Assembly: GCA_902574355.1 (NCBI GenBank)
Contig: CACGNN010000004.1
Span: 1 to 64,000 of the forward strand
Reading direction: 5' to 3'
From: an uncultured SAR86 cluster bacterium
Lineage (GTDB): Bacteria > Pseudomonadota > Gammaproteobacteria > Magnimaribacterales > Magnimaribacteraceae
DNA length: 64,000 nucleotides
Shown here: positions 31,587 to 38,862 of the stretch, piece by piece
Layout: each line of letters begins with the position of its first letter
Position numbering within the stretch: the stretch's first letter is position 1
The notes under the pieces: generated by a model
Databases searched by the model: none
The model's input: only the letters and a program-made list of their open reading frames with translations
What the model was told of the DNA's origin: nothing
Program-made: the position numbers and the translations under genes

Positions 31587-32435
31587 GTGATGGTTAGAAA
31601 TATTTATAAGTTTTATTTACTTTCCCTAATGATCTTTTCAATGAGTTCATGCTCAATTGCAGGATCATGGGTTTACGAGAGATTAGATAATTATTTGGCT
31701 GATTATTTCAAGGAATTTGCTAATTTCACACAAGAGCAAGATGAAGAAATAGAAATTATTTCAAAAGAATTTATAAATTGGTTTAGTGAAAATGAACTTA
31801 GCAAAGTAAAAGTTATTCTAGAAAAATTAAAAAATATAAATTTACAAAATCCTGAGAAAGAAATTAGTTCTATTTATAAGGATGCAGAAGGAATTTTTAC
31901 AAGATCAAATTTCTATTTCAAATCACCCATAATAAGCTTCACTAAGGAAATAAATGAAGTGCAAATAGACGAGATAGGATCTCATTTTAGAGAACTTAGA
32001 GAGAAAAGGAAAAAAGAGAGATTAGAGAATAGTTATAGCTTAATAGAAAACTATATTTCTGGATTTGATCGAGTAGGTATCAAACTTAGAGATGATCAGA
32101 TAGATGAAATAAACTTGAAATTAGAGAATCACATTGAAGTAAGGGAAGAATGGTCTAATCTTCAAGAACAATGGATAGAGGAGTTTATTCAACTTCTAAA
32201 AAATAATAAGTCTTCGGATTACGAAGCAAAAATGTCGGCATACCTAGATTCTCTTGAAGAACTAGGAGAAGAAAAGTTTAGAGAAAAGATTGATAAGAAT
32301 GAGTTACTTGCACAAGAAATCATTAGCTTTGTCTTTAAATCAAGCAATGAAAAACAAATAGATAGTTTCAATAGAAGCATAGAAGTTTATTTAAAGTCTA
32401 TAAACAGAATATTATCTAAGAGACAGGTTAATTAA
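31587..32435 (+). CDS. DUF6279-type lipoprotein
   Basis: The 282-residue protein begins with a signal peptide and lipobox (SMSSC, Cys at about residue 22), followed by SWVYERLDNYLADYF, a start seen in DUF6279 lipoproteins. The rest is charged, predicted helical, rich in Glu and Lys. Two Met codons begin the frame; either could be used. It precedes ubiE by 32 nt but seems functionally unrelated. Function is not known. Confidence 0.72.
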   Translation: MMVRNIYKFYLLSLMIFSMSSCSIAGSWVYERLDNYLADYFKEFANFTQEQDEEIEIISKEFINWFSENELSKVKVILEKLKNINLQNPEKEISSIYKDAEGIFTRSNFYFKSPIISFTKEINEVQIDEIGSHFRELREKRKKERLENSYSLIENYISGFDRVGIKLRDDQIDEINLKLENHIEVREEWSNLQEQWIEEFIQLLKNNKSSDYEAKMSAYLDSLEELGEEKFREKIDKNELLAQEIISFVFKSSNEKQIDSFNRSIEVYLKSINRILSKRQVN

Positions 32436-34779: not shown

Positions 34780-35115
34780 ATGACCGAACAAGACTTGCTC
34801 AAAAAGCTCTTTCATATAATGGAGAAAAGGGTCGGCTCAATATCTAAAGACTCGTATGTAAAGTCTCTTTTGGATCAAGGAAAGGTAAAAATTAATGAAA
34901 AAGTACTCGAAGAGGCGCTCGAGCTACTAGAAGCAACAAATGATGTGTCAGTCGACAAGAATAAAAAAATAATTCATGAAACCGCAGATTTATGGTTTCA
35001 TACTATGGTCTTACTTTTGAATGAAGGTATTCATATAGACGATGTTCTAGAGGAACTAAATAATAGGCTTGGCATATCAGGGCACAAAGAAAAGAGTTCC
35101 AGAAAGAAAAAATAA
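34780..35115 (+). CDS. hisE: phosphoribosyl-ATP pyrophosphatase
   Basis: HisE hydrolyses phosphoribosyl-ATP to phosphoribosyl-AMP in histidine synthesis. The 111-residue protein has the MazG-like metal-binding segments LEEALELLEAT and HETADLWFHTMVLL, and a basic C-terminal end (KEKSSRKKK). In Pseudomonas hisI precedes hisE here; hisI is absent in this window. It lies between ubiB and tatA, 1 nt after ubiB, as expected for the ubiB-hisE-tatABC order. Confidence 0.88.
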   Translation: MTEQDLLKKLFHIMEKRVGSISKDSYVKSLLDQGKVKINEKVLEEALELLEATNDVSVDKNKKIIHETADLWFHTMVLLLNEGIHIDDVLEELNNRLGISGHKEKSSRKKK

Positions 35116-35125
35116 GGAGAAATAA

Positions 35126-35287
35126 ATGGGTATAGGCGGAATTAGCATATGGCAAATACTGATAATTTTAGTAATCGTGTTGCTTCTGTTTGGAGGCACT
35201 AAAAGGATTAAAAATTTGGGTTCAGACTTAGCCAATACAATTAAAAGCTTTAGGAAAACTCTTGATGAAGAAGACGATAAAAAATAA
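35126..35287 (+). CDS. tatA: twin-arginine translocase subunit TatA
   Basis: The 53-residue protein starts MGIGGISIWQILIILVIV, has one N-terminal membrane helix, the FGGTKRIKNLGSDL hinge/amphipathic helix, and an acidic-basic tail. TatA forms the pore-like oligomer for export of folded proteins. It is shorter than E. coli TatA (89) but within the short-TatA range. AAGGAG lies 6-7 nt upstream. Its stop overlaps the tatB start by one base. Confidence 0.95.
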   Translation: MGIGGISIWQILIILVIVLLLFGGTKRIKNLGSDLANTIKSFRKTLDEEDDKK

Positions 35288-35514
35288 TGTTCGACGTTGG
35301 TTTTTTTGAAATTTTAATAATTTTCGTTGTTGGAATTATTCTAATAGGTCCAGAAAAATTACCCGAAGTCTTAAAATATATATTTGTTACAGTAAGAAAG
35401 ATAAAAGATCAATTCAACGATGCTAAGGAAGAAGTATCAAAGACGCTTAACCTTGAAGAAGCTCTTCTTGATGAAAAAAATAAAGAAATATTAGAAGATC
35501 TTAAAGAAAGATAA
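35287..35514 (+). CDS. tatB: twin-arginine translocase subunit TatB
   Basis: The 75-residue protein has an N-terminal membrane helix (MFDVGFFEILIIFVVGIILIG), the conserved PEKLPEVLKYI after it, and an amphipathic charged tail. TatB joins TatC in binding twin-arginine signals. It is much shorter than E. coli TatB (171), as is common in compact genomes. Sits between tatA (1-nt overlap) and tatC (4 nt). Confidence 0.93.
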   Translation: MFDVGFFEILIIFVVGIILIGPEKLPEVLKYIFVTVRKIKDQFNDAKEEVSKTLNLEEALLDEKNKEILEDLKER

Positions 35515-35518
35515 TCTT

Positions 35519-36262
35519 ATGGAAGAAGCATCTCTTGTTGATCATCTAACAGAACTAAGAGTAAGACTTGTTAAATCAATAGTAGTTATAGCTAGTTGTT
35601 TTATTCTACTTATTTATTTTTCTAATGACATTTATCAGTTCTTGGCAGAGCCTTTGCAAAAATTCTTACCTTCTAATTCTTCCATGATTGCTACTGAAGT
35701 AGCCTCTCCATTCCTAGCGCCTCTAAAATTAACTCTATTTGTTTCACTTATGATTTCCATGCCTTATTTTTTTTCTCAAATATGGGGGTTCGTAGCACCA
35801 GCTTTGTACAAACAAGAAAAGAATCTGAGCTTCTCTTTATTATTTTCAAGTGTTGTACTTTTCTATTTAGGTATTGTCTTTACCTATTTTTTAATTTTAC
35901 CAATTGTCTTTAGCTTCTTTACTTCGTCAGCTCCAGAAGGTGTTTTGGTTATGACAGATATTAATAGTTACCTAGGTTTCGTGTTAGGAATGATGTTTGC
36001 TTTTGCCATTGCGTTTGAAATCCCTATTTTAATATTTCTCTTAATATGGAGTGGCGTATCCACATCGGCAAGTTTATCTAAAAGAAGACCTTACATAATA
36101 GTAGGATGCTTTGTAGTTGGTATGCTAATAACTCCTCCAGATGTAATTTCTCAAACTTTGCTTGCAGTGCCGGCTTGGCTTCTTTTTGAATTAGGCCTTT
36201 TAATATCTACATTAATTTTAGAAAGCAGAGCAGCTACAGAAGATAAGAAAGAAGGAGAATAG
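35519..36262 (+). CDS. tatC: twin-arginine translocase subunit TatC
   Basis: The 247-residue protein is a six-helix inner-membrane protein. It opens SLVDHLTELRVRLVKS (the conserved HLxELRxR) and contains FFSQIWGFVAPALYKQEK and the late TPPDVISQ, all TatC signatures. TatC recognises Tat signal peptides. A plausible client is encoded nearby: the aminotransferase at 37234 has a clear twin-arginine signal. Confidence 0.97.
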   Translation: MEEASLVDHLTELRVRLVKSIVVIASCFILLIYFSNDIYQFLAEPLQKFLPSNSSMIATEVASPFLAPLKLTLFVSLMISMPYFFSQIWGFVAPALYKQEKNLSFSLLFSSVVLFYLGIVFTYFLILPIVFSFFTSSAPEGVLVMTDINSYLGFVLGMMFAFAIAFEIPILIFLLIWSGVSTSASLSKRRPYIIVGCFVVGMLITPPDVISQTLLAVPAWLLFELGLLISTLILESRAATEDKKEGE

Positions 36263-36376: not shown

Positions 36377-37222
36377 TTGGAGCAACCTTTGGAAATTTTT
36401 GGATTACTAGTTTTACTTATAACTGCTGGTGCCGTAGCTGGACTCACAGCAGGCCTTTTTGGAAATGGCGGCGGGTTTGCAGTGGTCCCTGCTCTTGTTT
36501 TACTTTTTTCGATACTAGATATCGAATCTGAAAACCTAATATTCGTGGCTGTTGGTACTTCTCTTGCTTGTATTATATTTTCATCGGCAAGAGCATTAAT
36601 ATCGCATAATAAAAAAGGTGCTGTCGATTTTTTAGTTTTAAAGGCCTGGGCACCATGGTTAGTAATAGGGGTCATTATTGGAATTTTTATTGCTTCATAC
36701 TCTCAAGCTGAAGAGTTATATCTCATATTTGCTTGGGGTGTATTGTTCTATGGAATCTACTTCCTCTTCCCAAAAATATTGGACCAAACTGCTATGAAAC
36801 AAAGAGATATGCCTGTTGGTTTTGCCCGAGCCGGCCTGGTATCATTCCTTGGAGGTTTTTCTGCACTACTGGGAATTGCTGGGGGTACAATAACCGTCAT
36901 AACAATGTCTGTGTGTAAAAGACCAATTTATCAGGCAGTCGCAACTGCATCAGGTGTAGGTTTAATAATCGGTCTAGTTGGTGCATTAGGTTTTCTTATT
37001 TTAGGCTTCAATAAAACAGACCTCCCTTTTGGATCACTGGGGTTTATTAATATTCCAGCTGTATTGATAATAAGTTTAGTGTCTATTTTAACTGCACCAA
37101 TAGGAGTCGAATGGGCTCATAATCTTGAAGAGAATAAATTGAAAAGGCTTTTTGGTCTTTATTTGCTTTTAGTCTCGTCAGGAATGTTTTGGAAGGCAAG
37201 TCTTTCCTCATCAATAATTTAA
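36377..37222 (+). CDS. TauE/SafE family sulfite/organic anion permease
   Basis: The 281-residue protein is an integral membrane protein of about eight helices with the family start AGLTAGLFGNGGGF and a repeated LGGFSALLGIAGGTITV later, indicating the two homologous halves of TauE/SafE exporters. Substrates include sulfite, sulfoacetate and related anions, but vary. No ATG fits: TTG at 36377 is possible, and TTG at 36389 has TTGGAG 6 nt upstream and may be the true start. An in-frame stop at 36368 limits any extension. Confidence 0.82.
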   Translation: MEQPLEIFGLLVLLITAGAVAGLTAGLFGNGGGFAVVPALVLLFSILDIESENLIFVAVGTSLACIIFSSARALISHNKKGAVDFLVLKAWAPWLVIGVIIGIFIASYSQAEELYLIFAWGVLFYGIYFLFPKILDQTAMKQRDMPVGFARAGLVSFLGGFSALLGIAGGTITVITMSVCKRPIYQAVATASGVGLIIGLVGALGFLILGFNKTDLPFGSLGFINIPAVLIISLVSILTAPIGVEWAHNLEENKLKRLFGLYLLLVSSGMFWKASLSSSII

Positions 37223-37233
37223 TAGGAGAAAAT

Positions 37234-38415
37234 ATGAAAAATAATGCAATATCAAGAAGAACATTATTGAAAGGAGCCTTATTTACAGCTAGCTCAGTTA
37301 TAGCTGCACCAGTAATAGGTCAGAGTTCAAAAACGAATAGTGTAATAAGCAGTATTCCAAGGACAGTTCCAAGTAATGCACAAAATATTAGTTATGGTCC
37401 GGCATTTGGAGTAGCTAAATTGAATGCTAATGAGAATCCATATGGTCCAAGTCCTTTAGCTCTAAAAGCCATGGAAGAGGCCATAAAAATGGGGTCTTAC
37501 TATGTGCAAGAAGTACCAAGACTTAAGCAAATGATCGCCGAAAGAAATAATGTTACACCAGAGCATATAATTATTGGTTCTGGTTCTAGTGCTCCTTTGC
37601 AATGGCTAGCAACAAAAGTTACTCAAGAAGGACATATTTTAGGTCCCGACCTTTTTTGGGACACAACATCAAAAATGGGGAGCATGAATAGTGAGTATGG
37701 GATTGAAAGATTAGATAAAACATCTGATTTAGCAATAGACCTCGATAAAATGTATAACAGTATTACGTCAAGTACTGGGATGGTACAGGTTACGAATCCA
37801 AATAATCCTACGGGTCTTCCCCTCTCTCCAAAAGCGCTTAAGTCTTTCTGTAAAAAAGCATCAAAGAAAACAATTGTTTTAATTGATGAGGCTTATAACG
37901 AGTTAACAGATGATCCTGATGCAAATACTATGATTCCTTTGATAAACGAAGGTTACAACGTTGTAGTTGCTAGAACTTTCTCTAAAATCTATGGACTTGC
38001 CGGAATGAGGGTAGGTTATTTGATTGCAGATCCGGAAATGATAGAGAAGATATCCTCCTTCGGTTTGGGTGATTACTCCTTAAATCAGGCGGGAGTAGCT
38101 GCTGCTATAGCTTCATATAATGATGAGACGTTTTTAAAATACTCAAAGGAGAAAATCGTCGAAGCAAGAGATATGTTGCAAGATGCTATTAAAGAAAATG
38201 GCCTGAAACCCCTATCAACAAGCACTAATTTCATGTATGTGGATCTTGGATCTTTGAATGCAGAAGAATTTAGAAAAGAAATGGAAAAGGAAAGGGTGCT
38301 TATTAGAGGAATATATCAAGACTATGTAAATTGGTCTCGAGTGAGTACTGGCAAAATAGCAGATGTAAAACAGTATATTAGAGCCCTACCGAAAGTTCTC
38401 GATAGAATGAGTTAA
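37234..38415 (+). CDS. Tat-exported PLP aminotransferase, histidinol-phosphate aminotransferase-like
   Basis: The protein of about 393 residues starts at the ATG at 37234, with AGGAGA 5-7 nt upstream. Its first 30 residues are a twin-arginine signal (AISRRTLLKGALFTASS, then VIAAPVIG). The rest is a fold-type I aminotransferase like HisC: NANENPYGPSPLAL, PNNPTGLP, DEAYNELTDD, and the PLP-lysine motif TFSKIYGLAGMRVGY. It is 11 nt after the permease gene. I infer a folded PLP enzyme exported by Tat; the substrate is not known. Confidence 0.86.
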   Translation: MKNNAISRRTLLKGALFTASSVIAAPVIGQSSKTNSVISSIPRTVPSNAQNISYGPAFGVAKLNANENPYGPSPLALKAMEEAIKMGSYYVQEVPRLKQMIAERNNVTPEHIIIGSGSSAPLQWLATKVTQEGHILGPDLFWDTTSKMGSMNSEYGIERLDKTSDLAIDLDKMYNSITSSTGMVQVTNPNNPTGLPLSPKALKSFCKKASKKTIVLIDEAYNELTDDPDANTMIPLINEGYNVVVARTFSKIYGLAGMRVGYLIADPEMIEKISSFGLGDYSLNQAGVAAAIASYNDETFLKYSKEKIVEARDMLQDAIKENGLKPLSTSTNFMYVDLGSLNAEEFRKEMEKERVLIRGIYQDYVNWSRVSTGKIADVKQYIRALPKVLDRMS

Positions 38416-38424
38416 TTATTGGAA

Positions 38425-38862
38425 TTAATTTTCGAACCAAAATGTAACTGGTCCGTCATTTACCATTCGTACTGACATGTCTGAACCAAAGCTACCTATC
38501 TCACATTCAAGGTTCTTTCTTTTTATTATCTGAATAAAATCTTGAAAGAAATGAAAACTTTTTTTAGGGTCTGCTGCTTTTGAAAAACTAGGCTTGTTTC
38601 CCTTATTTGTTCCAACAGACAGAGTTACTTGAGGAACAACTAGTAACTGATGATTTGTCTCTAGGATACTTCTAGATATCTTTCCATTATGATCATTGAA
38701 GATTTTAAAATTTAATAGCTTCTCGGCCATTGATCTTAAACTCTCCGTGTTATCGTGTTTATCAAAACCTACAAGTGCCATAACTCCTTGCTGAATAGAG
38801 CTGACAATTTGATTATCAACTTCAACTGATGCAGTTGAAACTCTTTGAATGAGAAGTTTCAA
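38425..38862 (-). CDS. dtd: D-aminoacyl-tRNA deacylase
   Basis: Dtd hydrolyses D-aminoacyl-tRNAs to keep translation stereospecific. The 145-residue protein begins MKLLIQRVSTASVEVD and ends with the cross-subunit motif MVNDGPVTFWFEN; the catalytic loop reads NKGNKPSFSKAADP. It directly follows the aldolase gene (zero gap) at the end of the glycolytic operon. Confidence 0.95.
   Translation of the reverse strand: MKLLIQRVSTASVEVDNQIVSSIQQGVMALVGFDKHDNTESLRSMAEKLLNFKIFNDHNGKISRSILETNHQLLVVPQVTLSVGTNKGNKPSFSKAADPKKSFHFFQDFIQIIKRKNLECEIGSFGSDMSVRMVNDGPVTFWFEN

Follow-up and report, generated by a model that had tools for sequence, protein, structure and literature searches.

Only a handful of PLP enzymes are known to act outside the cytoplasm. 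In the 64,000-nucleotide stretch of SAR86 cluster DNA analysed here (the window, from a genome of 1.4 Mb, G000), a gene for an aminotransferase resembling HisC opens with an apparent twin-arginine (Tat) signal and lies beside tatABC and a permease gene. This arrangement raises the question of whether the product (AT) is exported, which of its neighbours are its partners and what it might do in the periplasm. Features of the locus are collected in Table 1.

Table 1. Features of the window at and around the AT gene
Feature	Position	Strand	Basis or remark
hisE (phosphoribosyl-ATP diphosphatase)	34780..35115	+	Adjoins tatABC with or without the TauE-AT pair; outside the module
tatA-like ORF	35126..35287	+	Named by eye
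tatB-like ORF	35287..35514	+	Named by eye
tatC	35519..36262	+	Its 3' side is the site of the TauE-AT pair in the window's subclade
TauE/SafE-family inner-membrane permease, AT partner	36377..37222	+	PF01925, 143.1 bits (cut-off 32.6); co-occurrence
AGGAGA ribosome-binding site of AT	37224..37229	+	4 nt 5' of ATG
AT, Tat-signal HisC-like fold-type I PLP aminotransferase	37234..38415	+	393 aa; ORF, Pfam, AF2 model, PDB fold matches
Twin-arginine signal peptide of AT, residues 1-29	37234..37320	+	Sequence, alignment, low-confidence part of model
Arg8-Arg9 codons, SRRTLLK motif	37255..37260	+	Invariant in alignment A1
Asp218 (DEAY)	37885..37887	+	Invariant in alignment A2
Lys251 (TFSK)	37984..37986	+	Invariant in alignment A2
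Arg369 (WSRVSTG)	38338..38340	+	Invariant in alignment A2
dtd (D-aminoacyl-tRNA deacylase)	38425..38862	-	Named from sequence; convergent

The twin-arginine signal and the start codon

AT starts with an ATG at 37234 and carries the Tat-type signal SRRTLLKGALFTASSVIAAPVIG; its N-terminus reads MKNNAISRRTLLKGALFTASSVIAAPVIGQ and leads into a complete class I/II PLP aminotransferase. To judge from the sequence, the signal resembles that of a Tat substrate in its twin-arginine motif, its charge-free and moderately hydrophobic h-region and the small residue before a cleavage point that is predicted, by eye, between VIG and Q. R8 and R9 showed no variation across the 10 proteins of alignment A1. The pair was retained in 16 of the 16 family members checked and was followed by a charge-free stretch in 14 of them, the exceptions being L044 (one charge) and L046 (two). 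A six-frame translation of the window gave 73 ORFs that reach 100 aa, and AT was the only one with an RR signal motif within the first 32 residues. In the AlphaFold2 model (mean pLDDT 86.3), residues 15-54 fell below 50 and the fold became confident at about residue 55; the signal is therefore best read as an extension outside the enzyme fold. Coordinates, reading frame, Pfam match and conserved arginines thus agree with the preliminary description of this gene, which had proposed a Tat-type signal joined to a full PLP aminotransferase.

That proposal would fail if the true start lay after the signal, leaving an ordinary cytoplasmic HisC, or a HisC-like paralogue, with a mis-called start. One public record, from Zymomonas, does name a more distant Tat-signal relative as histidinol-phosphate transaminase. 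However, an SD site precedes the ATG, the stretch that separates the RR pair from the catalytic domain offers a single alternative start, a TTG at codon 12 within the signal itself, and orthologue L014 has no start codon anywhere between the pair and the domain. The start-codon evidence and the conservation of RR led us to reject a wrong start, and with a true HisC encoded on another contig (see below) we regard a cytoplasmic AT as extremely improbable.

Orthologue L041, from uncultured SAR86 cluster bacterium AG-359-K21, was 96% identical to AT. In the close-relative pairs where it was computable, dN/dS of AT was 0.05-0.13, a range that indicates purifying selection.

Catalytic domain and predicted fold

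Residues 61-384 of AT matched Pfam Aminotran_1_2 (PF00155) at 136.1 bits, where the cut-off is 19.7. K251, D218 and R369 were unchanged in the 32 sequences of alignment A2; we take them to be the Schiff-base lysine, the residue that contacts the PLP pyridine nitrogen and the arginine that binds the substrate carboxylate or phosphate, respectively. The nearest solved structures carry HisC annotation, with PDB 3ly1 at the top (Z 42.4, rmsd 1.9, 335 residues aligned, 28% identity). Residues specific to the AT clade (G137-P138, L140-F141-W142, T144-T145, N222 and Q285) include several near the PLP site by alignment, which suggests a pocket differing from that of HisC; the substrate cannot be read from them.

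AT might be exported and nevertheless catalyse a different PLP reaction, for example a decarboxylation or a cyclisation. The model matched GntC (Z 35.0) and L-threonine-O-3-phosphate decarboxylase (Z 38.0) nearly as well as HisC, and PvdN offers a case of unusual chemistry by a periplasmic PLP enzyme (PMC6206403, in the portion of the text available). Yet the top fold matches are annotated aminotransferases, and the AT sequence is nearer to the HisC and PRK09105 models than to those of CobD or GntC. We consider such chemistry quite unlikely and keep transamination as the presumed reaction.

Family placement

AT fell below the cut-offs of all three families compared: the HisC equivalog (TIGR01141; 205.8 bits, cut-off 276.55), the PtaA family (NF051461; 185.8 bits, cut-off 500) and the PRK09105 subfamily (NF006580; 223.2 bits, cut-off 444). 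Direct membership of PtaA or PRK09105 was rejected on these scores. A housekeeping HisC was likewise rejected, since the true hisC of this genome was present on another contig, scoring 358 bits against the same HisC cut-off and flanked by prephenate dehydratase and prephenate dehydrogenase genes. Searches with the AT protein gave best identities of 33-36% in plasmids and about 28% in phages.

HisC is cytoplasmic. In a tree built from the domain only, without the signal, 40 Tat-signal rows separated from 27 cytoplasmic HisC rows with split support of 100/99, the labels having been made by hand and the cytoplasmic rows being a chosen subset. An earlier tree of 66 rows, labelled and sampled in the same way, gave the same split with support of 99; the domain-only tree lacks three of its rows as near-copies (L011, L013, L097) and five as long or distant (L049, L065, L074, L081, L088). 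Within the domain-only tree the AT clade comprised 22 rows (100/98), and L069, whose PtaA family score of 657.4 marks it as a true PtaA, fell among the 40 Tat-signal rows. Automatic Tat labelling of 130 rows, run without eight in which the script found no domain start (L004, L050, L069, L079, L087, L098, L108, L138), called 36 Tat; these were strongly clustered and required 7 changes on the tree, not one. Six of the automatic labels were wrong by eye: L083, L131, L137 and L144 were RR in over-extended frames, and L046 and L064 were missed signals.

Because AT groups with Tat-signal proteins that include the periplasmic PtaA, an exported PLP transaminase is an already known kind of protein, and AT is one branch of a large Tat-signal HisC-like group. 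The remark in the preliminary description that a periplasmic PLP aminotransferase is unusual is not supported in that form: beside this large group, PtaA and PvdN are both precedents, exported by Tat into the periplasm with PLP bound (PMC6206403, available text). The group spans proteobacteria, Bacteroidota and others and is hidden under the names of histidinol-phosphate or PLP-dependent aminotransferases.

In Chitinophaga (L054:4286-6990), the start of one of its members is overlapped by the gene of another Tat-signal protein, whose N-terminus resembles, by eye, a flavin amine oxidase; the two genes make up an apparent operon of exported amine-acting enzymes. L097, also from Chitinophaga, is a close relative of L054.

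Genomic site of the pair

The genes hisE, tatA, tatB, tatC, TauE and AT all run in the same direction, as had been described. In 10 of 10 congeners that lack the TauE-AT pair, tatC is followed directly by convergent dtd, and the tatC genes of the pair carriers are closest to that of the window (75-100%, against 64-67% in non-carriers). The tatC-dtd interval therefore looks like an insertion site of the pair, and functional coupling of the pair to hisE or to a dedicated tat operon was rejected. Most other carriers have the pair away from the tat genes; in one (G051) it lies between pepP-like and ubiH-like genes, named from sequence. Adjacency to tatABC, which the preliminary description had named, is thus real and largely incidental.

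Nearness to tat genes may still matter in some way, given two further genomes. In G051 the pair is about 5.5 kb from ubiE-ubiB, the genes that precede tatABC in the window, and in the non-gammaproteobacterial L215 it shares the strand of tatB-tatC and is about 2 kb away from these genes. The latter region (L215:4033-9437), a second near-tat case, also holds scpA/scpB-like ORFs, by eye.

A hairpin between tatC and TauE was not above chance (z -0.82), and scans of the locus for promoters and terminators gave nothing above shuffles. Elsewhere in the window, a lipoprotein-like ORF (31587-32435) scored 27.4 bits for DUF6279, a borderline match just under the cut-off of 27.7.

The TauE permease partner

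TauE adjoins AT upstream, its stop lying 11 nt before the AT start. AT was present in 10 of 203 SAR86-order genomes, nine of them in the window's genus (19 genomes). When both proteins were searched in 61 SAR86-order genomes, TauE of at least 64% identity occurred in exactly the 10 genomes that carry AT and in none of the other 51, where any TauE present was no more than about 25-37% identical. Beyond SAR86, TauE stood directly 5' of AT in two Microbulbifer, a Halieaceae MAG and a gammaproteobacterial MAG. Microbulbifer strains can be grown and tested. In a phylum-wide sample, AT matches at E up to 1e-60 were found in 9 of 397 genomes other than the window's own, and the sample added seven further genomes with the pair (the TauE of L216 being cut by a contig edge). 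The adjacent pair was thus found in 21 genomes in total, 11 of which are proteobacterial and outside SAR86.

Four members of the AT clade (L039, L046, L218, L219) have no adjacent TauE; TauE is therefore not indispensable. The L039 genome (71% complete) gave no TauE match, and that of L046 had a TauE of only 37%, located elsewhere.

Pairwise distances of TauE and AT were correlated with an r of 0.99 over 13 pairs, a value inflated by shared descent, and dN/dS of TauE was 0.02-0.06. A sequence search of the PDB with TauE gave no match at E up to 1. The suggestion in the preliminary description that AT might act with the TauE-like permease gains support from the conservation of the pair and from its exact co-occurrence. 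Export of AT and its pairing with TauE are well supported, both at the level of sequence. We found no description of a fixed pairing of TauE with a periplasmic transaminase in the literature searched, and it is in this conserved partnership that the novelty of AT lies.

TonB-dependent receptors beside AT

The preliminary description made no mention of a further neighbour. Outside SAR86, 14 clade loci have several kb of flank (L042-L046 and L211-L219; L039, with a flank of only 1.5 kb, was left out), and in 8 of these a TonB-dependent receptor of a single family adjoins AT (L042, L043, L045, L212, L214, L216, L218, L219). Receptor identity between lineages was 57-69% in the six loci compared. 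The receptor of L216 is split into two frames, and the receptor at L217 belongs to a different family and lies at a distance of about 3 kb. Loci of cytoplasmic HisC, many of them Gram-positive, gave no receptor-model match at E up to 1e-8.

Two more distant Tat-type relatives, on a Novosphingobium plasmid and on Zymomonas pZMOB01, also have a receptor neighbour. On the former, the aminotransferase start overlaps the receptor stop codon by one base.

The SAR86 loci, by comparison, had no adjoining receptor in the listed stretch of the window or in two 17-kb regions. A search of 19 congeners found a related receptor (about 45% over the N-terminal third) in SAR86 genomes with and without AT. Because carriers and non-carriers both have it, the search gave no association of receptor and AT in SAR86, and a receptor step is not supported for the window organism.

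Several other genes were seen at these loci. The Novosphingobium humi plasmid (L185:1659-7029) has in a row an ECF sigma factor, a FecR-like-looking ORF, the TonB-dependent receptor and the Tat-signal aminotransferase; the FecR-like-looking ORF gave zero Pfam or NCBIfam matches. On Zymomonas mobilis pZMOB01 (L186:3109-6990), an RR-signal gene annotated as histidinol-phosphate transaminase, a name that is probably wrong, is divergent from a receptor whose annotation is siderophore transport. Loci L218 and L219, which lack TauE, have a short hydrophobic ORF of some 120 aa between receptor and aminotransferase (L218:9069-9419, L219:7305-7667); that of L218 had no Pfam match. Upstream of the gene group, whether receptor-TauE-AT or TauE-AT alone, four loci have a LysR-type regulator, confirmed by Pfam in L214 and recognised by eye in L045, L212 and L213.

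Proposed role of the pair

We infer transamination as the reaction of AT, an amino compound as its class of substrate and a direction for TauE. By analogy with PtaA and PvdN, AT would fold and acquire its PLP in the cytoplasm. Tat would then export the folded enzyme to the periplasm, where it would work as one of the two members of a TauE-AT unit. Its substrate there would be an amino compound that had passed the outer membrane, probably by way of the adjoining TonB-dependent receptor in several relatives, and the reaction a transamination. The anionic keto product, or else the keto-acid co-substrate that recycles PMP to PLP, would cross the inner membrane via TauE. We think it rather probable that AT is a Tat-exported PLP transaminase of this uptake-linked unit, with TauE moving its product or co-substrate. 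More tentatively, a three-layer route may operate in several proteobacterial lineages, in which the receptor brings the compound in, transamination follows in the periplasm and TauE carries the keto product inward, SAR86 having been reduced to TauE-AT; this fuller version is possible and somewhat doubtful.

A keto acid as cargo is an extrapolation, because the cargoes reported for TauE/SafE members are sulfite, sulfoacetate or sulfate (PMC11535334, available portion). Exporters are among the characterised TauE proteins (PMC4033097 and PMC11535334, both in the parts available), and a transaminase in the periplasm depends on an amino acceptor or donor being present beyond the inner membrane. TauE could accordingly face outward, supplying the periplasm with an alpha-keto acid acceptor or removing a by-product, while AT aminates or detoxifies a compound outside. 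However, an outward TauE alone leaves the recurrent outer-membrane receptor unexplained, and the accessible text of PMC11535334 reports a TauE homologue that takes up sulfate. We judge outward transport unlikely and favour the uptake-linked unit.

The receptors also bear on a different alternative, in which AT is a tailoring enzyme like PtaA that modifies the amino-acid moiety of a siderophore or chelator in the periplasm and does not feed central metabolism. PtaA, the only characterised relative named, is a periplasmic transaminase that acts on pyoverdine (PMC6206403, as far as its available text goes), and the receptor neighbours, with the sigma factor in Novosphingobium, resemble iron-uptake arrangements. 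Against this, PtaA lies on a different branch of the exported group and AT scores far under the PtaA cut-off. No siderophore synthesis gene was recognised by eye in the listed neighbourhoods, and TauE as a siderophore transporter was not found in the literature searched. Tailoring of this kind seems to us an improbable role, and we retain the uptake-linked unit as the preferred reading.

In this branch of exported aminotransferases a TauE permease is an almost constant companion and an outer-membrane receptor a frequent one. Should the proposed role be correct, uptake would include the processing of amino compounds between the two membranes. This would bear on the nitrogen turnover, and perhaps the sulfur turnover, of SAR86 and related bacteria, and TauE permeases would gain a testable new cargo.

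Comparison with known systems

The partner of AT is a clear member of the TauE/SafE anion permeases (PF01925). AT itself shares with HisC (TIGR01141) its fold and catalytic residues, whereas its score is under the equivalog cut-off and its position is on the opposite branch of the tree. In PDB 3ly1, a putative HisC from Erwinia carotovora and the closest solved fold, a chain of 354 aa with numbering up to 393 suggests that about 39 N-terminal residues, perhaps a signal, were left out of the construct. PRK09105 (NF006580), a subfamily with Tat-type signals, is the top NCBIfam match of AT and spans the signal region (protein 4-390, profile 3-372), although the score reaches only about half the cut-off given above. 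PtaA of the fluorescent pseudomonads is alike in being a HisC-like PLP transaminase with a Tat signal and in falling, like AT, with the Tat-signal proteins at the deep split in the tree, and unlike in its separate branch, its low identity to AT (28% for L069 in alignment A3) and the distance of AT from the family cut-off; neither a TauE partner nor the AT-linked receptor family was found beside PtaA in L069. PvdN of Pseudomonas aeruginosa presumably belongs to another PLP family than AT. It resembles AT as a Tat-exported periplasmic PLP enzyme and differs in the reaction that it carries out, according to the available text of PMC6206403.
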